Source of the DNA: Methanococcoides vulcani
GTDB taxonomy: Archaea > Halobacteriota > Methanosarcinia > Methanosarcinales > Methanosarcinaceae
Assembly (NCBI RefSeq): GCF_900111645.1
Contig: NZ_FOHQ01000001.1
Span: 381,468-445,467, forward strand
Direction: 5' to 3'
Length of the DNA: 64,000 nt
The translations under genes were made by a program, and so were the position numbers. Below, one piece after another: positions 5,526 through 18,433 of the stretch (its first letter is position 1; each line of letters opens with the position of its first letter). The notes below the pieces were generated by a model, which saw only the letters and a list, made by a program, of their open reading frames with translations, ran no database searches and had not been told where the DNA came from.

Positions 5526-6587
5526 TTAGCAGATCCTTGGTATCAGATCACCTGTAGGTATATCCACGTACCTCATACTTCCAATTATTGTTTTCATCAA
5601 GACTTTACCTGAATGACCGTCTGTTGCTTCACCTATGATAGCAGCATCTCTACCATACTTATGGTTACGAATTATTGATAGCGCTTCCTCTGCATGTTCA
5701 GCCTTGACACAAATGATCGCTTTACCCTCATTTGCTACTTCAAGAGGGTCGATACCAAGCATTTCACAGGCAGATGAGACTGATTCTTTTATAGGTAAAT
5801 CCCTTTGATGAATGATAATTCCTGTTCCGCTTTTTTGTGCCATTTCGTTTAGTGCACCAGCAAGTCCACCTCGGGTAGGGTCTTTCATAGCTGATATGGC
5901 AGGTTTGCCTTCGACATTTCGTATTGGAATAACTGCTCTTATCATATTCCATAAAGGTGCTACATCAGATACCAGATCCGTACTAAAATCGAATCCTTCT
6001 CTATGAGCCAGAAGTGATATCCCATGGTCACCTATGGTACCTGTAAGGATTATCTTGTCACCTGGGCACAATCCAGAGTCGCGGATCACATCACCCGCAA
6101 TGCCGATACCTGTAGTATTGATTATAATTGAATCAAGTCCGTTTCTCTCGACCGTTTTTGTATCACCTGCTATGATGGGGACACCAACCTCTTCTGCAGC
6201 TGCATTCATGGACTTTATTATTTTCTCAAAAGACTCAAGCTCAAATCCCTCCGGCACCACTATTGCACATGTAAGAGCAAGAGGAGCAGCTCCCATTACT
6301 GCAAGGTCATTAACAGTACCTGAAACAGCAAGCCTGCCAATGTTGGAATCCGGAAAAAAAGGTGGTTTAATGACGTGACTGTCGGTGGTGATAACGATTT
6401 CATCACATTTTTTGCTGCCATCCATAGTATTTGCGATGTTTATTGTTGCACCATCATCGAGATCATCAAGTCCCACAGGTCCTGCAGATTTGTTAGTTAT
6501 ATTGTTGAGGATCAGATCACGTATCAATGCTTGCATCGGCTCTCCTCCAGCTCCGTGTTCCATCCTTATGACTTTATCTTTTGACAT
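5526..6587 (-). CDS. hypE: HypE, carbamoyl dehydratase for hydrogenase cyanide ligands
   Basis: A 353-residue PurM/AIR-synthase-like enzyme. With HypF it converts an S-carbamoyl on its C-terminal cysteine to thiocyanate, which supplies the CN ligands of the [NiFe] site. The N-terminal MEHGAGGEPM motif and the invariant C-terminal PRIC with the acceptor cysteine as the last residue are both present, as are the nucleotide-site stretches AGDTKTVE and DPTRGGLAGALNEMA. An ATG 24 bases upstream is also in frame, but MSKDKVIRMEHG at 6587 is the usual start and is preceded by GGTAGTGAG. It is the last gene of the hypCDABE operon, 29 bases after hypB. Confidence 0.95.
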   Translation of the reverse strand: MSKDKVIRMEHGAGGEPMQALIRDLILNNITNKSAGPVGLDDLDDGATINIANTMDGSKKCDEIVITTDSHVIKPPFFPDSNIGRLAVSGTVNDLAVMGAAPLALTCAIVVPEGFELESFEKIIKSMNAAAEEVGVPIIAGDTKTVERNGLDSIIINTTGIGIAGDVIRDSGLCPGDKIILTGTIGDHGISLLAHREGFDFSTDLVSDVAPLWNMIRAVIPIRNVEGKPAISAMKDPTRGGLAGALNEMAQKSGTGIIIHQRDLPIKESVSSACEMLGIDPLEVANEGKAIICVKAEHAEEALSIIRNHKYGRDAAIIGEATDGHSGKVLMKTIIGSMRYVDIPTGDLIPRIC

Positions 6588-6616
6588 GATTCTCACTACC
6601 AGAAATAACAATATAT

Positions 6617-7270
6617 TTATTCAAGATGCGATTCGATGTACTCTATCCATCTATCAATGCTTATCGCATCATTTTTAGAAGTTAGCAGTACGGGTATTGA
6701 TGGATTTAACTGATTTATGTCACCTCTCATTTTTGAAGGATCGGCAGACACAGCTTCACTGATGTCCACTTTATTCACGATGGCAAGGTCAGAGGTCCTG
6801 AATATCATTGGATGCTTCAAAACAGTATCTTCCCCCTCACTTACACTTACAATTACAACACGTACGTGTTCACCAAGTTTATAGTCCACAGGACAAATGA
6901 GATTCCCTACGTTTTCAATGAACAAGATATCAATATCTTTAAGATCTATATTTGCTAATGATCTTTCGATAAGTTTTGCATCCAGATGACATTCACGTCC
7001 GGTGTTTGCAGCTACAGTTTTCACACCAAGTTTTTCAAAACGGGATGCATCCATCTGTGCCACAACATCACCTGCAATAACCGCTATTCTGTACCGCTCT
7101 TTGAGTGCATTGATAGCCTCTTCAATAAGCGTTGTTTTCCCGGAACCTATGGCTCCCATGATATTCATAGTAAAAATTCCGTGTTTAACTAAAAGCTTCC
7201 TGTTGCTATATGCAAGTTCATTATTGGCTTTTAGAACATCTTTGTTGACGTTTATTACGTGCATAAGCAT
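6617..7270 (-). CDS. hypB: HypB, GTPase for nickel insertion into hydrogenase
   Basis: A 217-residue SIMIBI-class GTPase that works with HypA to deliver nickel to the hydrogenase large subunit. The P-loop GAIGSGKTT is at residues 39-47. Also present are ENVGNLICPVDYKLGE, which holds the metal-site cysteine at the dimer interface, and the base-recognition NKVD. The His-rich N-terminal extension of some bacterial HypB proteins is absent, as is usual in archaea. The start at 7270 has AAAGGGG eight bases upstream; ATG 7264 is the alternative. It lies 21 bases after hypA. Confidence 0.95.
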   Translation of the reverse strand: MLMHVINVNKDVLKANNELAYSNRKLLVKHGIFTMNIMGAIGSGKTTLIEEAINALKERYRIAVIAGDVVAQMDASRFEKLGVKTVAANTGRECHLDAKLIERSLANIDLKDIDILFIENVGNLICPVDYKLGEHVRVVIVSVSEGEDTVLKHPMIFRTSDLAIVNKVDISEAVSADPSKMRGDINQLNPSIPVLLTSKNDAISIDRWIEYIESHLE

Positions 7271-7291: not shown

Positions 7292-7675
7292 TCATATTTC
7301 TATATCTATCGTATGAATAATGAGATCATTACCACCGACCAGCTGAAGCAACTTGCCGCATACAGGACAGGCAAGTCTTGTATATTCATAAAGGGGTGGA
7401 TAATCTTTACAACGAGCGTTATCTGAAATTTCGGCATCTCCCCGGTATCCGCATTCACACTCCCCACATGGTGAAATGAAATTCACATTGATCTTTGCAC
7501 CTTCGGCAATACTATCTTGAGATAAAACATCAAAGCAGAATAATAGCTGGTCCGGATTCACATGTGTAAGCCTGCCTATTTCCAGTGTTATGGAATTTAC
7601 TGCCAATGCTTTATTTGTATGTGCTATGGAAATAACATTTTCAAATATCTCACAAGCAAGTGAATATTCATGCAT
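7292..7675 (-). CDS. hypA: HypA, nickel metallochaperone
   Basis: A 127-residue protein with the nickel-binding N-terminal MHE motif (His2) and a zinc domain: C70, C73 and C75 on one side, CPVC (C103, C106) on the other. It brings nickel to HypB and the hydrogenase large subunit. The start is one base after the hypD stop, and AAAGGA inside the end of hypD serves as its ribosome binding site, so the two genes are translationally coupled. Confidence 0.95.
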   Translation of the reverse strand: MHEYSLACEIFENVISIAHTNKALAVNSITLEIGRLTHVNPDQLLFCFDVLSQDSIAEGAKINVNFISPCGECECGYRGDAEISDNARCKDYPPLYEYTRLACPVCGKLLQLVGGNDLIIHTIDIEI

Positions 7676-7676
7676 A

Positions 7677-8765
7677 TTATATTCCTTTATTATGTGTATA
7701 TTTGTACCAGTTATAGCATGTGCCTTCCAGGCTTACCATGCAGGGTCCGACTGGATTTTTTGGCGAGCATCTTTTGCCAAAGAGTGGACATTGAGCAGGT
7801 TGGGCACGGGCTGTTAATATTTCAGCACATATACAGCCCTCCCACATCTCGTTTTGATTATTGTCAATATCTGATACTTTTTTCTCATGCTGAGCTTTTT
7901 CGTATATATCGGCATAAACATTCACAGCATCGAATTGCTCAAACTCTTTTTTTAAAGCAAGGCCGGATTTTTCGATCATGCCAATTCCTCGCCATTTGCT
8001 ATCGATCTTTTTAAAGACCAGATACATCATTTCCTGAGCCTTGAGATTGCCCTCAACATTCACACAGCGTGAATATGCGTTTTCCACACAAGACCTGCCG
8101 GATTCGATCTGGTTCTGAACCATGGCTATACCGAGTAGAACATCTAGAACTTCAAACCCTGTTACAACTATTGGAAACCCCCTTTCTGAAACGGAATTGT
8201 ATGGATATGTGCCAATAATTGTTGACACATGCCCTGGTGCCAGAAATCCGTCCACAATGGTATCTTCTGTGAGGATTTCCATTGCAGGAGGCATAAGTTT
8301 ATGGGATGTTAACATGCTGAAGTTTTCAGGAACTTCCCTCAATAATGCAGCAGCATTGGCAGGTGCAGTAGTTTCAAATCCAATTCCAAAAAATACAATA
8401 TCCAGGGTCGGATTATCTTTTGCGATCTTTACAGCATCATCGATACTGTAGACCATACGAATATCATATCCATCCGATCTAGCATCAAATAAACTTCCCC
8501 TAGTGCCCGGGACCCTCATCATATCTCCAAAGGATGCTATCACCTTTCCGGATTTTGCTAATGAAATTGCAAAATCGATGTCCTCTGCAGGCGTTACACA
8601 AACAGGACATCCAGGGCCGCTTAACAACTGAACATCTTTAGAAATTATATCGCGTATTGCATATTTTGATATTGTTCTTTCATGGGTGCCACATACATGC
8701 ATTATTCGAATAGGGGCTGCATGTTCATTAATTCTTGATATAAGCTTTTGTTCAATATTTTCCAT
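7677..8765 (-). CDS. hypD: HypD, Fe(CN)2CO assembly scaffold
   Basis: A 362-residue Fe-S scaffold protein on which the iron, two cyanides and CO of the [NiFe] site are assembled with HypC. The three signature regions are visible: CGTHE at residues 25-29, GPGCPVC with C53 and C56, and the C-terminal Cys-rich region that binds the [4Fe-4S] cluster (CPLFGKRC, then NPVGPCMVSLEGTC). The length is normal. It starts four bases after the hypC stop and touches hypA, in the middle of a tight operon. Confidence 0.97.
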   Translation of the reverse strand: MENIEQKLISRINEHAAPIRIMHVCGTHERTISKYAIRDIISKDVQLLSGPGCPVCVTPAEDIDFAISLAKSGKVIASFGDMMRVPGTRGSLFDARSDGYDIRMVYSIDDAVKIAKDNPTLDIVFFGIGFETTAPANAAALLREVPENFSMLTSHKLMPPAMEILTEDTIVDGFLAPGHVSTIIGTYPYNSVSERGFPIVVTGFEVLDVLLGIAMVQNQIESGRSCVENAYSRCVNVEGNLKAQEMMYLVFKKIDSKWRGIGMIEKSGLALKKEFEQFDAVNVYADIYEKAQHEKKVSDIDNNQNEMWEGCICAEILTARAQPAQCPLFGKRCSPKNPVGPCMVSLEGTCYNWYKYTHNKGI

Positions 8766-8769
8766 TATA

Positions 8770-9000
8770 TCAACTGGGGTCCATCAAATCTCTTAGTAAC
8801 TTAAGTATTTCTTCGCTTTCTTCATCAGAGATCAATGAGATAGCGTACCCGACATGAACAAGTGCATACTTGCCTATAAGCGATCTATCAGCCCCTCCTA
8901 TAAGATCCAGGTTGACCTTTCTCTTTATACCCCCGATATCCACAGTAGCCGTATTTTCATTCAGGATTGAAATTATTTTCCCAGGAATGGCTATGCACAT
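8770..9000 (-). CDS. hypC: HypC, hydrogenase assembly chaperone
   Basis: A 76-residue chaperone that carries the Fe(CN)2CO unit with HypD and binds the immature large subunit. It must begin Met-Cys, and MCIAIPGK is found exactly at 9000. Cys2 and His49 (ALVHVG) are the conserved ligands. An upstream in-frame ATG at 9054 would add 18 residues and bury the essential Cys2, so it is rejected. There is no ribosome binding site, and a TATA-like TTAAATAC lies about 27 bases upstream, so the transcript may be leaderless. First gene of hypCDABE. Confidence 0.95.
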   Translation of the reverse strand: MCIAIPGKIISILNENTATVDIGGIKRKVNLDLIGGADRSLIGKYALVHVGYAISLISDEESEEILKLLRDLMDPS

Positions 9001-9174
9001 ACTATAAAAGAGGGATTTTTTTGTATTTAATGTATGTTGTCTGCTTCTAATCATGTGGGTCGATATTTATATCTGGAAGCAAAATAACTACAATTATGGG
9101 ATGGGTTTTATCGATTAATTTTATGGGAGACTATCAGGATCCATTTTCACAATCATTCAAACTGAGATGGTCAT
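9001..9174. promoter_or_regulatory. Divergent promoter region, hyp operon / hydrogenase operon
   Basis: For the minus-strand hyp operon, CATTAAATACAA (9032-9021) would put transcription start at about the hypC ATG. For the plus-strand hydrogenase operon the best TATA box is TATTTATAT at 9064-9072, giving a leader of roughly 80 bases to TTG 9175. That leader contains a 35-codon open frame (ATG 9096 to TAA 9203) that overlaps the hydrogenase start; I cannot say whether it is translated. The shared region suggests co-regulation of enzyme and maturation genes. Confidence 0.55.
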
Positions 9175-10236
9175 TTGATTTCAGGAAATACAAATTCAAG
9201 TAATAGTGTCAAAGATTTTGATTTTCTCAGGATGGACTGGCACAAGTTCCTTGAGGCTACAAGATCAACCGGGGTGTTCGATCTTCTGGAGTCCTACAAG
9301 AAAGATACACTGTAGGCTCATGACTTTCCGAAGACCCGGGTCTTCTGGATCCAGGGTGCCCAATGTACAGGATGTTCTGAATCTTTATTGAATGCTGCCA
9401 ATCCGGCGATCATTAAAGCATTTGAAATACTCAACATCGATCTGGAATGTCACGAAGCATTCCTTGCACAGCAAGGTCTATTTGTCGATGGGGAATCTGT
9501 CAACACATCAGAACTTAATTCAGAGATCTTGATCGATGAGATAAGTGAAAAGGGCGACTATATTCTGGTTGTTGAGGGGGCAATTGCAAACGGTCCTGAA
9601 GGTTCGGGAAGATATTGCATGGCTGGAGGCTGTACCTGCAAGGAAATGTTCAAAAAAGCAGCTCAAAATGCTAATTTGATAATAGCTGTAGGCACGTGCG
9701 CTGCATACGGCGGTATTAACTCAGCCAGTAGCGATATAGTTGATCTGCTGGACTTCAGGGGTGTTGCTTTTACGAAGAAAGATCCATCTAAAGGAATGCT
9801 AAAGGTTCTTGGGATAGATAAACCTGTGATCAATATTCCAGGCTGTCCGGCCCATCCTGACTGGATAATATTTACATTAAGTGCATTGATATCCGGTAAT
9901 ATCAAGGTACCAGAAGATCTGCCTGAAGTACTGGATGAATTTGGCAGGCCAAAGGTGTTCTATCCGCCAAATTATACAGTTCATAAAGACTGCCCTCGTT
10001 ATGTATTTTTCAAAAAAGGGGAATTTGACAGTCATTTGGGGGGAGATAAATGCCTGTTGAAACTAGGCTGCAGGGCTCCATCTGCACATGCTGATTGCAC
10101 ACTGCGTAAATGGAATGACGGACATAGTTATTGTGTTCAGGCGGGTTCTCCATGTATTGCATGTATAGAACCGGATTTTCCTGACAACGCAAGACCTCTG
10201 TATTCAATTAGTATAAAAAAGAAAGAGGAGGATTGA
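9175..10236 (+). CDS. [NiFe] hydrogenase small subunit (Vht/Vho-like) with in-frame TAG codon
   Basis: This subunit carries the Fe-S clusters that take electrons from the [NiFe] site. Reading through TAG at 9313-9315 (residue 47) gives 353 residues. The motifs after it are CTGCSE (proximal cluster), GTCAAYGG, PGCPAHPDW, VHKDCPR, and a run of Cys ending CVQAGSPCIACIEPDFPD. All cluster ligands appear present. No ATG, GTG or TTG lies between the TAG and TTG 9388, which is already past CTGC, so an active protein needs UAG decoded. The N-terminus aligns with Vht-type leaders (FLRMDWHKFLEA), but the twin-arginine pair is replaced by WH, the hydrophobic core is gone and the C-terminal anchor is missing. 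The TTG start is chosen by alignment. The large subunit follows. Confidence 0.85.
9313..9315 (+). other. In-frame TAG, candidate pyrrolysine codon 47 of the hydrogenase small subunit
   Basis: The codon context is ACA CTG TAG GCT CAT. The frame is open for 46 codons before it and 306 after it, and conserved hydrogenase sequence resumes 13 codons downstream. It sits in the former signal-peptide region, just before the mature domain. Confidence 0.7.
9328..9348 (+). other. Stem-loop 12 bases downstream of the hydrogenase TAG
   Basis: GAAGACCCGGGTCTTC at 9330-9345 is a perfect 16-base palindrome, and CC / GG flank it with one unpaired T. A second short palindrome, CTGGATCCAG (9345-9354), abuts it. 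The position after an in-frame UAG recalls the PYLIS-type structures proposed for methylamine methyltransferase mRNAs. A role here is inference only. Confidence 0.45.
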
Positions 10237-10238
10237 AA

Positions 10239-12026
10239 ATGGTTCGCGTAACAGTTGATCCCCTTACAAGAGTCGTAGGACCCTTAAGGTTGGATACTGA
10301 GGTGAATGAAGAAGGTATTATAACGCAAGCCAGAAGTTCCAATATGATCTTTAGGGGGTTTGAACGTATATTTCAAAATCAGGACCCAAGAGATTCCGTA
10401 CTACTCTCTCAGAGGATCTGTGGCGTATGCCCGGTAGCACACTCTATGGCTTCAGTTAATGCACTTGACGAGTTATTTGGTGTTGCGCAGTCTGTTCCAA
10501 AAGATGCACTTGTTTCAAGAAATATTAATCAGGGCTTGAATACGATTGCAAACCATATGCTTCATGTCAATATTCTATGGGGTCCAGACCTTGCAAATCC
10601 TGCATACGGTAATGTATTATCAACTTTTGGTGATATGGGAGGTGCGATATGGAAAGAATTGCTGGGAAGATTTGCACCAATCAGCTATAAAATCGATGGC
10701 GCAGCTATTCCGCCGGGGAGCTCATATGTTGATGTCATTCCGGTGAAGAAAAAAATACATGACGCCTGTGCTGTAATTGGTGGTAAAATGCCCCATCAGA
10801 CTGTAACCTATCCTGGGGGAGTTACAAACAAGCCAACAGCTTCAGACATTAATAGCCTGTCATCGATCATATCAGATGTCATCAATTTCTTTAATAGCCA
10901 TACCATAGGCGTACCTTTTGAGTTTTGGGTTGAGAATACTTACATGGCAACTTCGCCAAAGAAGGCAGTAAACTTCTTTATTGAACATCTTAATGAAATA
11001 ACTGAAAAGTCGCTTAAGACAAATGATCTTTCACGTTCAAGCGGATGGGGGGATGTAGAGCTCTATGCCGCGTTTGGTTCAGAACTGATTGGTGAAAGAT
11101 TGCTAGGACTTCCTATTAGTCTCAAACACGATAAAATGGGCGGCTACCGTGATCTTTCAAAAATAGGATTCCTTTCATATGGTGGATTCTATAATGTGGA
11201 GCATGAAGGTTATGATCCAACAAGCCCTTCTGGTGATCGCTTCCAGACCTCTGGTTTTATGAGCAGTTCATTTGAGTATCATAAATTCGATGCAAATAAG
11301 GTCACAGAAAGCGTTAAACATGCTTTCTATAAAGGTGATGATAGTAACAAGCACCCATACGATGGAGTTACCGAACCTTACAGTGATCCCAATTTGATCA
11401 ATTATCAGGATTCACCTGATGATAAATATACATGGTCTAAAGCTCCACGTTATGGTGGTATCCCATGTGAAGTGGGTCCACTATCTCGTTTACTTATAAT
11501 GAAAGAGCCACTGGTTATGGGTCTTGTAAACATGTTCCAGGACAATGGATATTCTCCTTTTAACAGTTTTACCAGAATGATAGCACGCATGCAGGAAATG
11601 TTTGTTATTACTAATGAACTGATCAAGTGGATCAAAATAGACCTTGATCCAAATGGAAAATTCCATGTGGATATTGATCTGTCAATGGCTAAGGATTCCA
11701 GAGGAATTGGTCTTTGGGAAGCTCCTCGCGGTGCATTGGGACATTGGGTTATAACCGATAGCAATTCTAAAGTTGCCAATTACCAGATAGTTACACCAAG
11801 TTCCTGGAATCTGAGTCCAAGGGATAGTGAAGGAGTGCCAGGTCCTCTTGAACAGGCACTTGTGGGGTCCAGAATATCCGCAGTTGAAAACTGGCTTGGG
11901 GTTGATTTCAGTAATCCGACTGGTATTTTACATGTGGGAAGGTCTTATGATCCCTGTGTTACATGTGCTGTTCACACCATAGATCTAACAGGGAAAAATT
12001 CCCCTGGTACAATAAGACTTGTGTAA
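10239..12026 (+). CDS. [NiFe] hydrogenase large subunit (Vht/Vho-like)
   Basis: A 595-residue catalytic subunit. The L1 motif RICGVCPVAH gives C61, C64 and H68, and the L2 motif DPCVTCAVH gives C573, C576 and H579, so all four nickel-ligand cysteines are intact. A 16-residue tail (TIDLTGKNSPGTIRLV) after H579 is the peptide normally removed by the maturation protease, which is encoded next door. The sequence resembles methanophenazine-reducing hydrogenases of Methanosarcina. It starts two bases after the small-subunit stop, with GAGGAGGATTGA as ribosome binding site. No cytochrome b gene follows, unlike vht/vho operons. Intact catalytic residues argue against a decaying gene. Confidence 0.93.
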   Translation: MVRVTVDPLTRVVGPLRLDTEVNEEGIITQARSSNMIFRGFERIFQNQDPRDSVLLSQRICGVCPVAHSMASVNALDELFGVAQSVPKDALVSRNINQGLNTIANHMLHVNILWGPDLANPAYGNVLSTFGDMGGAIWKELLGRFAPISYKIDGAAIPPGSSYVDVIPVKKKIHDACAVIGGKMPHQTVTYPGGVTNKPTASDINSLSSIISDVINFFNSHTIGVPFEFWVENTYMATSPKKAVNFFIEHLNEITEKSLKTNDLSRSSGWGDVELYAAFGSELIGERLLGLPISLKHDKMGGYRDLSKIGFLSYGGFYNVEHEGYDPTSPSGDRFQTSGFMSSSFEYHKFDANKVTESVKHAFYKGDDSNKHPYDGVTEPYSDPNLINYQDSPDDKYTWSKAPRYGGIPCEVGPLSRLLIMKEPLVMGLVNMFQDNGYSPFNSFTRMIARMQEMFVITNELIKWIKIDLDPNGKFHVDIDLSMAKDSRGIGLWEAPRGALGHWVITDSNSKVANYQIVTPSSWNLSPRDSEGVPGPLEQALVGSRISAVENWLGVDFSNPTGILHVGRSYDPCVTCAVHTIDLTGKNSPGTIRLV

Positions 12027-12073
12027 GAATATTAGAATTCATCAAATAATCCGAATATTTGCCGGGGACCTAA

Positions 12074-12568
12074 ATGCCTGAATTAAATCCATCTGTTCGC
12101 ATAATCGGATGTGGAAATACTTTAATGGGGGACGATGCTGTTGGCGTAAGGATTGTCGAGGCTCTCAAAAAAATGGAACTTGAACCTTTGGAGGGTATTG
12201 ATATTCTGGATGCTGGTGTATGTGGACTGGATATCCTGAACCTGCTGGAAGGTGTTGATAAGGTCATTATTGTTGATTCAATAATTGGTAATACGAAAAA
12301 AGGTTCAATTCTTCGTTTTGAGGGTGAGGATCTTTTGAATAAAGACTATGAACATGGTGGAATATTTTCCGCTCATGATATATGTATATCTGATGTCTTG
12401 GTCATTGGAAAACATGTACAGGACCTTCCTGAGATCCTCGTTTTTGGGATAGAGATTGGTGGCATAAAGGAAGAGCTATCAATGGATCTTAGTCTGGAGA
12501 CTCTTGCTGCAGTGGATAGGGTAATTCCGTATATTATTGAGGAAATAGTCGGAACATCTCAAGACTAA
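12074..12568 (+). CDS. Hydrogenase maturation endopeptidase (HyaD/HycI family, VhtD-like)
   Basis: A 164-residue protease that clips the C-terminal tail of the nickel-loaded large subunit. The family motif GCGNTLMGDDAVGVR is at residues 12-26 and carries a nickel-sensing acid (D21). The other expected metal ligands are D68 (VIIVDSI) and H101 (SAHDIC). It lies 47 bases after the large subunit and starts behind GGGGACC. Its target is very probably that subunit. Confidence 0.92.
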   Translation: MPELNPSVRIIGCGNTLMGDDAVGVRIVEALKKMELEPLEGIDILDAGVCGLDILNLLEGVDKVIIVDSIIGNTKKGSILRFEGEDLLNKDYEHGGIFSAHDICISDVLVIGKHVQDLPEILVFGIEIGGIKEELSMDLSLETLAAVDRVIPYIIEEIVGTSQD

Positions 12569-12627: not shown

Positions 12628-14904
12628 ATGCAAATTCAATGCAGAATGATCAATGTTAGCGGGGTAGTACAGGGTGTTGGCTTTCGCCCATTCATATATC
12701 ATATTGCGATAGAGAATGGACTCTGCGGTTACGTGAAAAATGCAGGGAATGACGTAGAAATAGTCACAGAAGGGGAAAAAGAAGATATCGACCGATTTCT
12801 CCACGACCTTTATTTTAAAAAGCCACCGCTATCACTTATCGATCAAATCAAAACAAACGTTTTTCGTGTATCAGGCTTTTCCGATTTCTCGATACTTACC
12901 AGTGAACAGGATGAAACTGCCAACTCCATTATCCCACCTGACAGTGCAATCTGTTCCGATTGCCTTCGGGACATGTACGATAGCAAAGACAGGCACTATC
13001 ATTACCCTTTTACATCCTGTACGAACTGTGGTCCGAGATATTCTCTGGTAAGCTCTCTTCCTTTTGATCGGGAAAATACTAGTATGCTTGAATTCCCGAT
13101 GTGCTCGGAATGCAGCCTTGACTACAAAATGTCTTCTGATAAAAGATTTCATGCACAGACCATGTGTTGTCCAAATTGTGGCCCTGTCCTTTCACTTACC
13201 AATGGAAACTGTGATGTTCTTGCATCCGGACATGATGCCATTATCAAATGTGCTGAACTCATAGATGGGGAATCAATTGTTGCAGTCAAAGGATATAGTG
13301 GATTCCATCTTGTATGTAATGCTACTTCAGACAGAGCGACCCTAAAACTCAGGAATGCCCTTAACCGTCCTGCACAGCCTTTTGCAGTGATGGCAAAAGA
13401 TGTTGAAACGGTATGTTCTTTTGCCAGTATCAATGCAGATGAAAGTTCCCTATTGCTCAGCAGGCAGCGTCCAATAGTTGTTCTGGACAAGAGTGATGAG
13501 TTTCCTCTATCTGAGCAGATAACTCCGGATCTTCATAATATAGGGGTAATGATACCATATTCAGGTACACACCACCTTCTTTTTGACAATAGTGATGCAG
13601 ATGTTTACGTAATGACATCTGCAAATCTTCCAGGTCTGCCAATGGTGATTGATAATGAGGAAGCATTGTCACATCTTGATAAGATAGCAGATTATTATCT
13701 ACTCCATAACTATGCGATCAAGAATAGGATCGATGACACGGTAATCAGAATCGTTAATGGAAGAATGGCTTTTATAAGGCGCTCACGCGGGTTTGTGCCT
13801 GAGAGGATAGAACTTCCATTTTCAATAGAGCCGGCGATTGGTGTGGGTCCTGAACTAAATACTACTGTAACGATTGCAAAAAAGAACAGTGCATATATTT
13901 CACAATATATTGGGAACACACGGCACTTTGAAACAGATCAGTATCACAAGCAGGTTGTTTTGAATTTAGAACAATTGACAAAAATTACGCCCAGGTTATG
14001 GGGTTGTGACTTGCATCCAGAATTTAATACCACCCGTTTCGCACAGGATATAGGTGGAGAGGGCACGGTTTTCGTGCAACATCATCATGCACACATCGTA
14101 TCGCTTATGGTGGACAACTTTTTGCCAGTTGATTCGAGGATAATCGGAATTGCTCTTGACGGATCAGGTTACGGGGAAAATGGAACCATATGGGGAGGGG
14201 AGGTCCTGGAAGCTACATATTCTGGTTATGAAAGAACTGCCCATCTTATGGAACAACCTATGCCTGGTGGGGATATGGCTGCAACTTATCCGTCACGTAT
14301 GCTTCTGGGAATGCTACATGATGCTCTTGAGCCGAAAGAATTGAGAGAACTACCTCTTTATTTTAAGTATGGTGAATCAGAACGTGACATTGTATTGGAT
14401 CAACTGGAAAAAGGTATAAACCTGGTTAAAACAAGTAGTGCCGCGCGTGTACTTGATAGTGCAGCAGCACTTCTTTGGATCTCACATTATCGCAGTTACC
14501 AGGGTGAGCCCGCAATGAAGTTGGAATCTGTTGCAAAAAAGAGTATTCATAATATAGATTTACCTGTTGTATGTAAACGAGGCGTGCTTGACACCACTAG
14601 TTTACTATATGAACTTTATGAAAGGATTGATACACATGCAGTTTGTGATCTGGCATACTCTATAGAAGATGCACTTGCACGTGGGGTTGCAGAACTTGCC
14701 ATTTCATCTGCCAAAAAACGGAATATTGATGTTATAGGACTTAGTGGGGGAGTTGCATACAATGAACATATAACAGGACGCATCAGTGAAGCTGTTAAAG
14801 ATGCAGGATTTGAATTTATTACACATAAGAAAATTCCCTGTGGCGATGGCGGGGTATCTTTGGGACAAGTGATGGTTGCAGGGGATTCTGAAGGAATTTC
14901 TTGA
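12628..14904 (+). CDS. hypF: HypF, carbamoyltransferase for hydrogenase cyanide ligands
   Basis: A 758-residue enzyme that makes carbamoyl-AMP from carbamoyl phosphate and transfers the carbamoyl group to HypE. Domains in order: acylphosphatase-like (VQGVGFRPF, residues 14-22), two zinc-finger units with four CxxC pairs (C109/C112, C131/C134, C159/C162, C181/C184), a YrdC-like domain (about 200-385), and a Kae1-like domain holding the metal motif HHHAH and ending in SGGVAYNEH. Length and order are standard. It lies outside the hypCDABE operon, downstream of the hydrogenase genes, and completes the maturation set except for general metal supply. Confidence 0.96.
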   Translation: MQIQCRMINVSGVVQGVGFRPFIYHIAIENGLCGYVKNAGNDVEIVTEGEKEDIDRFLHDLYFKKPPLSLIDQIKTNVFRVSGFSDFSILTSEQDETANSIIPPDSAICSDCLRDMYDSKDRHYHYPFTSCTNCGPRYSLVSSLPFDRENTSMLEFPMCSECSLDYKMSSDKRFHAQTMCCPNCGPVLSLTNGNCDVLASGHDAIIKCAELIDGESIVAVKGYSGFHLVCNATSDRATLKLRNALNRPAQPFAVMAKDVETVCSFASINADESSLLLSRQRPIVVLDKSDEFPLSEQITPDLHNIGVMIPYSGTHHLLFDNSDADVYVMTSANLPGLPMVIDNEEALSHLDKIADYYLLHNYAIKNRIDDTVIRIVNGRMAFIRRSRGFVPERIELPFSIEPAIGVGPELNTTVTIAKKNSAYISQYIGNTRHFETDQYHKQVVLNLEQLTKITPRLWGCDLHPEFNTTRFAQDIGGEGTVFVQHHHAHIVSLMVDNFLPVDSRIIGIALDGSGYGENGTIWGGEVLEATYSGYERTAHLMEQPMPGGDMAATYPSRMLLGMLHDALEPKELRELPLYFKYGESERDIVLDQLEKGINLVKTSSAARVLDSAAALLWISHYRSYQGEPAMKLESVAKKSIHNIDLPVVCKRGVLDTTSLLYELYERIDTHAVCDLAYSIEDALARGVAELAISSAKKRNIDVIGLSGGVAYNEHITGRISEAVKDAGFEFITHKKIPCGDGGVSLGQVMVAGDSEGIS

Positions 14905-15280: not shown

Positions 15281-15466
15281 AAATATAAACACATACATCA
15301 AGAGGATGGATGCAAAGATTATTGATATTATATAATTGTGAAAAACGTTTACTGTGTAAACAAAGTTTGGGTATTAGCCCAACCATATCACACAATAATC
15401 TAATGATCGCATGAAGTCTGCATAGCATGCAGGAGCCTGCTAAAAAAACATTTGGTGTTCATTTAC
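15281..15466 (+). promoter_or_regulatory. Promoter and structured leader of the heme operon
   Basis: A purine-rich BRE-like GCGAAAGGAAAC is followed by the TATA box AAATATAAA (15281-15289), which predicts a start near 15313 and a leader of about 150 bases. In it I see three short hairpins: GTTTAC-TGT-GTAAAC (15347-15361), TTGGG-CCCAA (15367-15382) and GCAGG-AG-CCTGC (15429-15440). GGTG before ATG 15467 is the ribosome binding site. The stretch 15123-15280 holds nothing else I can support. Confidence 0.5.
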
Positions 15467-15922
15467 ATGATACAACTTGATGATATTGATAAGAATATCC
15501 TTAATCTGATCCAGCTGGATTTTCCACTTGATGTTCATCCATTTGAAAAAATGAGCTTTCAACTGGGCATCTCTGAAGAGGAACTGCTGGAGCGCATGGA
15601 CCGTTTGAAAGAAGAAGGTGCAGTGCGCCGAATTGGTCCTGTTATCAACACAAAAAGGGTAGGTGGGATCAGTACTCTTGTCGCATTGAAAGCTCCTGGA
15701 TCAAAGATAGATGAGATTGCAGAGCTTATCAATCAACATCAGGAAGTTTCCCATAATTATTTGCGCCAGGCAGATTATAATATATGGTTCACAGTGTCTG
15801 CTGCTAACAAGGAACGTCTGGAGCAGATCATAAATGACCTTCAGGAAGAGACCGGCTGCCCGTTGATCGATCTGCCTACAAAACGACTTTTTAAGATCGG
15901 GGTGAAATTCGATGTCAAATGA
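15467..15922 (+). CDS. ahbA: Siroheme decarboxylase subunit (AhbA/AhbB-like)
   Basis: A 151-residue AsnC/Lrp-like protein of the NirDL/AhbAB family. It has an N-terminal helix-turn-helix-like fold (LDDIDKNILNLIQLDFPLDV) and a C-terminal ferredoxin-like domain with VSHNYLRQADYNIWFTV, which holds the conserved His. With its partner it removes two acetate carboxyls from siroheme to give didecarboxysiroheme in the alternative heme pathway. I assign A versus B by gene order; the labels could be swapped. It starts at ATG 15467, with GGTG upstream, rather than 15452. It overlaps the next gene by 11 bases. Confidence 0.88.
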   Translation: MIQLDDIDKNILNLIQLDFPLDVHPFEKMSFQLGISEEELLERMDRLKEEGAVRRIGPVINTKRVGGISTLVALKAPGSKIDEIAELINQHQEVSHNYLRQADYNIWFTVSAANKERLEQIINDLQEETGCPLIDLPTKRLFKIGVKFDVK

Positions 15923-16391
15923 TAATGTCGTCATGGATGAAGCTGATACCCGTCTTCTCAAGCTTACTCAGGATGGTATACCATTTGTCCATTCGCCATT
16001 TGCTATGATCTCAGAAGAACTTGGGATGACCGAGGAGGAGGTTGTTCATCGGATAGAACAACTTCAGAAAAATGGCTTTATTCGCAGATTTGGTGCATCC
16101 ATCGGTCATCGTGCAATTGGGATTACTGCAAATGCAATGTGTACCTGGAATGTTCCTGACGAGCGTGTTGAAGAAGTAGGTGCCGTTATGGCAGGCTTTA
16201 CAGAGGTGACCCATTGTTATGAAAGGCCACGTTATCCTGATTGGCCTTATAACCTTTTCACCATGGTACATTCCTATACAAGGAAGGATTGTGAATACGT
16301 TGCCCAGGAGATATCCAGGGCCACCGGAATTACTGATTATAAGTTGTTGTACAGTGTTCGCGAGTTCAAAAAGACAGGTGTGAGGTTGTGA
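15912..16391 (+). CDS. ahbB: Siroheme decarboxylase subunit (AhbB/AhbA-like)
   Basis: A 159-residue paralogue and expected heterodimer partner of the preceding protein. It has the same N-terminal helix-turn-helix-like segment (ADTRLLKLTQDGIPFVHSPF) and the conserved VTHCYERPRYPDWPYNLFTM region, with the His/Tyr/Arg residues of the active site. The 11-base overlap with ahbA and immediate contact with the next gene (stop TGA then ATG, no gap) point to a translationally coupled operon. Confidence 0.9.
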   Translation: MSNDNVVMDEADTRLLKLTQDGIPFVHSPFAMISEELGMTEEEVVHRIEQLQKNGFIRRFGASIGHRAIGITANAMCTWNVPDERVEEVGAVMAGFTEVTHCYERPRYPDWPYNLFTMVHSYTRKDCEYVAQEISRATGITDYKLLYSVREFKKTGVRL

Positions 16392-17072
16392 ATGGCAGAG
16401 CAGACCGATAGTCACAGGTATCTGCCACTTTTCATTGATCTGAGTGACAGGAAAGTGGTGATCTTTGGTGGAGGCTCGGTTGGTCTTCGCAAAGCATCGC
16501 TATTTTCGGACTATGCACATACAATTGTTGTAAGTGCGGACTTTGTTCCTGGGCTTAAGGACCTTTCGTCCTCAGCTTCTGTGGAGCTGGTTTCCATGGA
16601 CCTTTTGTCCGTATCAGATGAAAAGCTTGAAGAGCTTGTCATGGATGCGTTCCTTGTCATTCCCGCAACCAATATTGTTGAATTGAACGATCGAATAAAG
16701 GAATTTGCCCGAAGGTCAGGTGCATTGGTCAATCGTGTTGATATGGCGGATGGTGTGGTAATTCCTTCTGTAATAAAGAGGGGTGGTCTGACCATTGGAA
16801 TATCCACACTTGGCTCAAGTCCGGCAGTATCCAAATACACTCGCAAGAAAATAGAAACTTTTATCACTCCTCAGTATGGGGATATGATCAAACTGCAGGA
16901 TGAGATGCGAAATCTGCTAAAGGGCAAAGTTGCAGAGCAAAAGACAAGAAAGGCTATTCTCTGGGAGATCCTTGAAGATAGGTCCGTATGGGAAGCTCTT
17001 GAAGTTTCATATGAAAAAGGGTATAAAATAGCATATGATATATTTCAGGAGCACATAAGCAAGAAAGGTTGA
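16392..17072 (+). CDS. Precorrin-2 dehydrogenase / sirohydrochlorin ferrochelatase (Met8/SirC-like)
   Basis: A 226-residue Met8/CysG N-domain protein that oxidises precorrin-2 with NAD and may insert iron, feeding siroheme to AhbAB. The Rossmann motif VVIFGGGSVGLRKA is at residues 21-34, VNRVD follows about residue 115, and TIGISTLGSSPAVSKYTRK is the conserved catalytic-region motif. Whether it also chelates iron, as Met8p does, or only dehydrogenates, as SirC does, cannot be told. It starts directly after ahbB. Confidence 0.9.
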   Translation: MAEQTDSHRYLPLFIDLSDRKVVIFGGGSVGLRKASLFSDYAHTIVVSADFVPGLKDLSSSASVELVSMDLLSVSDEKLEELVMDAFLVIPATNIVELNDRIKEFARRSGALVNRVDMADGVVIPSVIKRGGLTIGISTLGSSPAVSKYTRKKIETFITPQYGDMIKLQDEMRNLLKGKVAEQKTRKAILWEILEDRSVWEALEVSYEKGYKIAYDIFQEHISKKG

Positions 17073-17078
17073 TGTTAT

Positions 17079-17168
17079 ATGGGACATTACATTAAATTTA
17101 AGTCCGATGTTCGTGTTCATGAAGGTATGCTACATCTAATGCACGTTCATTGTGGAGGTTCACTTTGA
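17079..17168 (+). CDS. Possible His-rich leader peptide upstream of hemA
   Basis: A 29-codon frame (ATG 17079 to TGA 17166-17168) fills most of the gap between the met8-like gene and hemA. It encodes MGHYIKFKSDVRVHEG, then [13 protein letters not shown], with five His and one Cys. Its TGA overlaps the hemA TTG start (TTGA), and the hemA ribosome binding site GGAGGT lies inside it, so translation of the two would be coupled. AAGGTTGATG precedes the ATG. Only the layout and composition support it. Confidence 0.4.
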   Translation: MGHYIKFKSDVRVHEGMLHLMHVHCGGSL

Positions 17169-18433
17169 CAGAGATATCCAGTATGGTCATTACGCATGCC
17201 AAGGCTACTGTTGAGGAAATGGAGGATTCCTGGCATGGGGACCTTGATCTTGTTCTGAATCAGCTATACTCAAATGAACTTGTTTATGAGTGCGCGGTCC
17301 TCAAGACATGCAACCGTGTGGAAATATATGTTGTTTCCTCAAAGGGTAGCAGTGTTCTGTTCCATTTTGCAAAGGAGATGGGCGTGTCGGCAAAGATCGT
17401 GGAGTTCTATGACCACGATGAATCTTTAAGACATCTGCTCAGACTTGCTTCTGGTCTTGAGTCCATGATAATTGGAGAAGCTCAGATCCTGGGTCAGATA
17501 AAGGACCTGTTCCTGGTAGCAAAAGAAGCCGGTACTGTAGGAAAGATCCTGGATACTGCTTTCAGCAAGGCTATCCAGGTTGGCAAGAGAGTACGCACTG
17601 AGACCTTCATCAACAGGGGGGCGGTTTCCATTGCTTCTGCAGCTGTTGATCTTGCTGATGATATCCTGCATGGTCTGAATGACAAGAATATCCTTGTCAT
17701 TGGTACCGGAGAAATGGGAACTCTGGTCACAAGGGCTCTTGCACACAGGGATATGAATGTGATCTATATTGCAAATCGTACCTACGAGAAAGCGAAAGAT
17801 CTTGCAGTAGAGCTTGGTGGCGAAGCTGTCATGTTCGACCAGCTTGAGAAATATGTTTCCGCAGCTGATGTGGTAATAAGTGCTACTTCTGCTCCTCATT
17901 ATGTTCTGAAGAAGGATATTGTGGAAAAGGTAATGGATGGTCGTACGAACGAACTTCTGCTTATTGATATTGCAAGTCCGAGGGATATTGATCCTTCAGT
18001 AGAAGAGATTCCGCATGTAATTCTTCGCAATATTGACGGTCTGCGTGTTATCAATGAGAAGAACCTTCAGATGAGGATGGTAGAGGCCAAGAAGGCAGAG
18101 GTCATAGTTGGACAGGAGCTCGAACTTCTTCAGGCCCAGTATAAGCGTCAGAAAGCAGATGTTATTATTTCAGAGCTTTATAGCAATTCCTATACTTTGA
18201 GAGGAACCGAGATGGAGCACGCCATTAACAGGTTGAGTGCCTATCATACGATGGGTGACTTTGAGCGCAAGGTGCTTGTGGACCTTACGCGTGCTATTAC
18301 TAACAAGATCCTGGCAGAGCCGACCAAAAAATTACGTAATGCCGCTGAATATGATGATGAGGATTTTTTAGATTCTGTATCCCGTTTATTTGATATTAGT
18401 CCGATCAAGAAGAGCAATGATGCTACAAAATAA
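17165..18433 (+). CDS. hemA: Glutamyl-tRNA reductase
   Basis: A 422-residue enzyme that reduces glutamyl-tRNA(Glu) with NADPH to glutamate-1-semialdehyde, the first committed step of tetrapyrrole synthesis. The catalytic cysteine is C49 in [25 protein letters not shown] and the NADPH site [11 protein letters not shown] follow, and the C-terminal dimerisation helix is present. I start it at TTG 17165 because a perfect GGAGGT (17154-17159) lies five bases upstream. The TTG at 17150 precedes that site and ATG 17183 is too far away. The use of UUG and the overlapping small frame suggest that initiation is a control point. Confidence 0.95.

Follow-up and report, generated by a model that had tools for sequence, protein, structure and literature searches.

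A Vht-type hydrogenase of Methanococcoides vulcani without export leader, membrane anchor or proton-gate glutamate, and with an amber codon in its small subunit

The Vht/Vho [NiFe] hydrogenases of Methanosarcina (VhtGACD) reduce methanophenazine and carry a twin-arginine translocation (Tat) leader, a C-terminal anchor and the cytochrome b VhtC. Regulatory, H2-sensing [NiFe] hydrogenases are a soluble small/large pair without a Tat leader. Mvh (MvhAGD with HdrABC), a candidate functional analogue, is also soluble and, as described in part of PMC5296606, hands its electrons to the heterodisulfide reductase (Hdr) complex. Here we describe a direct homologue of Vht/Vho from Methanococcoides vulcani, a marine methanogenic archaeon, encoded in a 64,000-nucleotide stretch of DNA (the window; C5:381468-445467 of a 2.31-Mb genome in 15 contigs, 99.95% complete). 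It shows 64-65% identity to one Methanosarcina-type copy and shares the subunit order, protease and hyp genes of Vht/Vho, but lacks the Tat leader, the anchor, VhtC and the proton-gate glutamate. An amber codon interrupts its small subunit between leader and mature part. The features that carry the analysis are as follows.

9175-10236, + strand: VhtG-type small subunit without a leader, 353 codons if translation passes the TAG; Pfam PF01058 and PF14720.
9232-9312, + strand: former Tat leader, with DWHKFL replacing DRRTFL and polar residues replacing the hydrophobic core; still conserved across the clade.
9313-9315, + strand: in-frame amber codon TAG at the former boundary between signal peptide and mature small subunit.
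10239-12026, + strand: VhtA-type large subunit, 595 amino acids; Ni/Fe ligand motifs RICGVC and DPCVTC and the final His intact.
10269-10283, + strand: RVVGP for RIEGH; codon 10275-10277 gives Val13 for the gate Glu, and Pro15 stands for the His.

The former Tat leader persists as sequence and has lost the marks of an export signal. We compared it across a family-level set of 111 genomes (M. vulcani is G000), 61 of which matched in a small-subunit search; 11 of the set belong to Methanococcoides. The M. vulcani segment, whose start may be TTG 9175 or ATG 9232, aligns residue for residue with the Tat leaders of Vht small subunits. As the original prediction had read it, WH replaces the RR pair: the motif is DRRTF or GRRTF in 16 of 16 canonical Vht small subunits (G002 and a partial second G102 copy excluded), DWHKFL in M. 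vulcani, and WH occupies the RR position in all 8 leaderless small subunits. The predicted loss of the hydrophobic core also held, the best 13-residue hydropathy being 0.47 in M. vulcani and at most 0.47 in 8/8 leaderless proteins against 1.33-2.08 in 17/17 canonical rows. In three leaderless members (G016, G023 and G020) an RR pair does occur about seven residues downstream, without a hydrophobic core. At the other end, the charged C-terminus noted earlier is a tail of 10 mostly charged residues with no anchor; past the last conserved Pro-Tyr, leaderless tails run 10-16 residues, compared with 39-76 in 15 of 17 canonical rows. The two exceptions are G002, which is short, and G052, not measured by the Pro-Tyr pattern and long in the alignment.

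Leaderless enzymes form a single lineage within Vht. Phylogeny, including that of the large subunit, supports the descent from Vht: all members fall into one clade, at 100/100 in both trees (26 small and 27 large subunits), among Methanosarcinaceae Vht, with the exact sister group not resolved by either tree. The clade comprises seven Methanococcoides genomes (G000, G016, G018, G019, G020, G021 and G023) and two of another genus, probably Methanosalsum: G073, and G072, which was added by its large subunit, its small subunit being cut by a contig end that leaves the leader outside the contig. Identifying G073 as M. zhilinae would fit the listing of vhtGADF for that species in Table 3 of PMC3017947, the part of that source on which we draw. 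A profile search with the small subunit across the order (185 genomes) gave no further leaderless member by score, which dropped from 695 bits for the lowest full-length clade member to 550 bits for the next genome.

The clade has also largely lost the machinery that a membrane-bound Vht would use. VhtC, searched with a query from G074, matches 52/111 family genomes and is absent from the M. vulcani genome and from all nine clade genomes, so the cytochrome b missing from the locus is not encoded elsewhere, and the distant vhtC that the original prediction had named as its refutation did not turn up. TatC, found in 57/111, is absent from M. vulcani and from 8/9 clade genomes in total. Because its genome has no TatC, Tat export looks impossible in M. 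vulcani as judged from its gene content. The proposal of a cytoplasmic Vht derivative is thus well supported: Tat signal, anchor, VhtC and TatC are all missing, and the same holds across the clade save for TatC in G021. The window copy is the sole full [NiFe] large subunit in a PF00374 search of the genome; a second match, at C5:300472, is a 375-codon frame covering positions 1-68 only and is probably FpoD.

Two Vht enzymes outside the clade deserve mention. A canonical Vht in G022 was set aside as within-genus evidence, as that assembly has 160 contigs, 5% contamination and two ribonucleotide reductases, and the copy groups with g10/g11; it may be contamination. The G002 pair (L090:23-2696), a distant Vht type, has an RR leader and RIEGH but is without a C-terminal anchor, and its genome gives no match to VhtC; the membrane cytochrome may have been lost here independently, for a second time.

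The metal sites are preserved and the proton gate is not. The original prediction had called the ligands intact, and this stands for the metals: ligands of the proximal, medial and distal iron-sulfur (FeS) clusters are all present in the small subunit, and the large subunit has RICGVC and DPCVTCAVH, as do those of the six other Methanococcoides. In these ligands the enzyme conforms to the group 1 type of [NiFe] hydrogenase. Two congeners miss one FeS ligand pattern solely through a K-to-R change between cysteines. The agreement ends at RIEGH, where Val replaces the gate Glu and Pro the His two residues on. RVVGP occupies this site in the seven Methanococcoides and RIGGG in G073 and G072, while all 18 other rows, G002 included, have RIEGH; by alignment, the counterpart of Val13 in the D. 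gigas-type large chain 1yq9 is residue 18. Allowing one exception and excluding G002 and the partial second G102 copy, 8 of 592 large-subunit columns and 17 of 346 small-subunit columns have a residue that is invariant in canonical Vht and that no member of the leaderless clade carries. The Glu and His of RIEGH are two of those eight. No new invariant acid or His compensates for the gate Glu in clade large subunits, the only new invariant polar residues being Ser57 and Ser202. The gate has been probed by mutation: parts of PMC3325256 report that Glu18 to Gln abolishes activity of the D. fructosovorans hydrogenase and that the same change leaves about half the activity in T. roseopersicina, where an Arg-Asp-His route was proposed. 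According to part of PMC11228991, E. coli Hyd-1 and Mbh have this glutamate as well.

Other departures at these sites were noted or discarded. The large subunits of G073 (L041:7658-9499, - strand) and G072 (L043:1415-3253, - strand) have RICGAC, EAGRG for EAPRG, and CAVQ, with Gln for the final His of L2. Small-subunit changes H60Q and E63Q were dropped as signs of proton-path loss and are not counted, because the [NiFeSe] enzyme 1cc1 carries Q and G at these sites. An AlphaFold model of the small subunit built on 12 rows had a mean predicted local distance difference test score (pLDDT) of 48; no fold search was run on it and nothing is drawn from it.

Both subunits remain under constraint. 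Against M. alaskense (G016), the ratio of nonsynonymous to synonymous divergence (dN/dS) is ~0.14 for the mature small subunit, ~0.13 for the large subunit and ~0.3 for the short leader. M. vulcani breaks none of the columns invariant in 23 other small subunits and one (Y111N) of those invariant in 25 other large subunits, with no frameshift and no broken metal ligand; this count excludes G002 and, for the small subunit, the partial G102 copy. The vhtG-vhtA pair (window 9316-12026) is more diverged from its congeners than the surrounding vhtD and hyp genes, in both dS and dN. This odd divergence would stem from older ancestry, exchange or faster change.

The small-subunit frame, taken earlier as open from 9175 to 10236, is not open: it contains an amber codon that had been overlooked. 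From TTG 9175 it reaches ESYKKDTL, meets TAG at 9313-9315 and continues as AHDFPKTRVFWIQGAQCTGC. The match to the order-wide profile runs through the TAG at full length (profile positions 1-356 of 359). In that search TAG occurs only in the M. vulcani match; the other rows have no TAG, and one cut-off fragment has TAA. Between the TAG and the proximal-cluster cysteines there is no in-frame ATG, GTG or TTG, the next being TTG 9388, past the proximal CxxC; a start beyond the TAG would therefore lose those cysteines.

We think it likely, from gene content and codon context, that this codon is read through as pyrrolysine (Pyl), because PylS and tRNA-Pyl are present and, where real genes of the sample contain a TAG, their frame runs on past it. 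PylS scores above cut-off in 11/11 genus genomes, and in M. vulcani a tRNA-Pyl with anticodon CTA adjoins it, so that in-frame UAG and Pyl machinery occur in one genome. MtmB with one internal TAG occurs at two places in that genome. In a 464-kb sample, 7,371 of the 41,244 stop triplets in all frames are TAG, and TAG ends 8 of 345 long non-overlapping open reading frames (ORFs). In four of these eight the frame stays open for another 111-440 codons (ribonucleotide reductase, MttB, MtbB and one unknown), and the Pfam matches of the three named proteins span their TAGs. The other four overlap opposite-strand ORFs and look spurious. Long genes in this sample thus do not normally appear to end in TAG. 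Part of PMC2933860 notes that M. burtonii pylB terminates in TAG, so TAG can still stop; the same source cites a reporter study in which full-length product with pyrrolysine formed at an apparent efficiency of 20-30%.

Two other TAG-containing genes of the genome may be noted here. The ribonucleotide reductase gene (L076:11725-13818, - strand; genome C5:371725-373818) has its in-frame TAG in a conserved stretch, and this TAG is sporadic, present in M. vulcani and one G022 copy and absent from another G022 copy and from G024. A 637-codon protein (L069:6747-8657, + strand; genome C5:226747-228657) has a TAG before a Gly-rich linker and gives no Pfam match with the TAG read through.

The pair sits within a maturation operon that lacks a cytochrome. 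As the original prediction had it, no cytochrome b gene lies between the large subunit and the protease in the window. The neighbouring genes are as follows.

12074-12568, + strand: VhtD-like hydrogenase maturation protease, 164 amino acids; NCBIfam TIGR00072 above cut-off.
12628-14904, + strand: HypF, by Pfam.
8770-9054, - strand: HypC; NCBIfam TIGR00074 above cut-off.
7677-8765, - strand: HypD; Pfam PF01924.
7292-7675, - strand: HypA; the best NCBIfam matches are HypA, slightly below their cut-offs.
6617-7270, - strand: HypB; TIGR00073 above cut-off.
5526-6611, - strand: HypE; TIGR02124 above cut-off.

The divergent arrangement of hypE-B-A-D and vhtG-A-D-hypF recurs, small extra frames aside, in G016, G018, G019, G020, G021 and G073. 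HypD occurs in 61/111 family genomes. It was not found in G023 and G072, both fragmentary with the hydrogenase module on short contigs, and three Methanococcoides (G017, G024 and G025) have neither hydrogenase nor HypD. Downstream of hypF lie haem-synthesis genes (window 15452-18433: AhbA, AhbB, a siroheme synthase N-terminal domain and HemA).

With moderate confidence, we propose from these sequence comparisons that the M. vulcani enzyme is a functional cytoplasmic [NiFe] hydrogenase with an altered proton path and a soluble partner. A two-subunit enzyme of Vht descent would stay in the cytoplasm, and the neighbouring hyp genes and protease would mature the small and large subunits. Ordinary Pyl machinery would decode the amber codon as pyrrolysine, which may serve as a neutral linker residue. 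A normal NiFe site would split or form H2; protons would exit along a path that does not involve the RIEGH glutamate, and the three FeS clusters would link the site to a soluble partner acting as electron acceptor or donor. A broader statement, that the soluble clade works without the gate Glu, whether by another proton route or as a hydride-holding H2 sensor, and that M. vulcani has placed Pyl at the old signal-peptide cleavage site, is tentative and as a whole rather doubtful.

The partner is a guess. The original prediction named a ferredoxin, an F420 enzyme or heterodisulfide reductase; we would consider as most plausible either a ferredoxin or an HdrA2-type protein acting through its MvhD-like domain. 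In none of the genomes read is a partner gene linked to the hydrogenase module. Of the genus genomes, 10/11 encode an HdrA2-like protein that carries an MvhD-type domain (frames of 789-806 codons), with or without the hydrogenase, and part of PMC5296606 describes an HdrA2-MvhD-like fusion in a ferredoxin- and F420H2-dependent heterodisulfide reductase. By analogy the MvhD domain may offer a reasonable docking site, yet its presence does not track the hydrogenase. As a partner by neighbourhood it was dropped: it lies ~17-18 kb off in G018, G019 and G021 and ~43 kb off in G020, and in G016 and G000 it is on a different contig from the hydrogenase. Co-occurrence gives no signal, because the intervening genes differ and hydrogenase-free genomes have HdrA2-MvhD too.

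Several observations pull against a working cytoplasmic enzyme with a decoded amber codon. Since the gate glutamate is essential in one hydrogenase (in the part of PMC3325256 cited above), an enzyme without it may turn over poorly or not at all. Residues unique to M. vulcani number 38 in the small and 60 in the large subunit, against 0-4 and 2-13 in five congeners, and dS is raised in the M. vulcani pair (0.61 and 0.52, where VhtD and hyp genes give 0.20-0.48). In six congeners the small-subunit frame is open over 357-382 codons, with a Gly or Asp codon at the TAG site, and no outstanding RNA structure lies downstream of the M. vulcani TAG (z 0.50). That codon may have arisen recently by nonsense mutation, or it may be an error in base calling. 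G021, finally, is the one clade genome with TatC. There, two tatC-like genes and one tatA-like gene flank an RR-bearing binding-protein-like gene and ABC transporter genes (L096:948-6982); this Tat system, near the hydrogenase, is apparently not for it, and the cluster that its genes flank is iron-transporter-like and has its own RR protein.

These points feed three other explanations. An H2-binding sensor or hydride trap, whose NiFe site splits H2, turns over slowly and signals H2 to a regulator, would suit the replacement of the gate Glu in 9/9 clade large subunits while most metal ligands stay, and the module has no dedicated electron acceptor gene; part of PMC11228991 reports that the E28Q variant of E. 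coli Hyd-1 accumulates the Ni-R and Ni-C states. Against this, no kinase or regulator was recognised among the module's neighbours in the genomes read, and M. vulcani keeps both the maturation tail and the protease, and we consider a sensor unlikely. Regulatory hydrogenases are not known to keep a maturation tail or to need a protease. A decaying relic would have lost its membrane parts first, then the gate, then, in M. vulcani, the reading frame. The TAG, the elevated divergence of the pair, the further losses seen in G073 and G072 (EAGRG for EAPRG, Gln for the final His) and the three congeners without hydrogenase and HypD would all follow, but decay sits poorly with dN/dS near 0.14, the absence of frameshifts and broken metal ligands, zero and one breaks at otherwise invariant columns, intact hyp genes and protease, and a sample in which TAG does not normally end long genes; we rate it quite unlikely. 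A base-call or assembly error at 9313-9315 would make the small subunit an ordinary open frame as in the six congeners, all of which have a sense codon where this one genome has TAG. Sporadic TAGs do occur in conserved genes of the genus, as in the ribonucleotide reductase of M. vulcani and one G022 copy and not of G024, and we hold such an error to be highly improbable.

A cytoplasmic hydrogenase without its gate would matter on several counts. Engineered loss of the gate Glu abolishes one [NiFe] hydrogenase and merely halves another (in the same part of PMC3325256), hence the interest of a natural loss under purifying selection, a ready test of a second proton exit against another job for the enzyme. 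The locus would also offer a clear example of return to the cytoplasm by an enzyme once exported through Tat, its old signal peptide kept within the protein, and it bears on H2 handling by obligately methylotrophic methanogens. A recent report is said to find that some archaea, Methanococcoides included, read all TAG codons as pyrrolysine; if that holds, the amber codon is an instance of a known code. It shows how standard gene calling would truncate or overlook such a subunit.

Set beside described systems, the M. vulcani enzyme is closest to Vht by descent and differs from each soluble counterpart. Mvh keeps RIEGH, whereas M. vulcani has lost it; the M. vulcani large subunit matches Mvh large chains weakly, and its module has no mvhD gene. 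Regulatory hydrogenases differ in the maturation tail and protease that M. vulcani keeps, and no sensor kinase is linked to its module. Pyrrolysine outside the methylamine methyltransferases has a reported precedent, Heinemann in 2009 being said to have described its gain by neutral evolution in a tRNA-His guanylyltransferase; here the amber codon, a putative Pyl site, lies in a hydrogenase small subunit. An open-access literature search, itself not proof of absence, gave no report of a lost leader with soluble reversion, Tat loss across most of the clade, a missing gate glutamate or a pyrrolysine hydrogenase. The vhtGADF genes of M. zhilinae (PMC3017947) and VhoGA without VhoC of M. methylutens (PMC4239356) are almost certainly the same system. 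The relevant parts of these sources list the genes, so that the missing cytochrome b is already published for both species, with no mention in those parts of a lost leader or anchor, Tat absence or the missing glutamate; to this system M. vulcani adds the amber codon.

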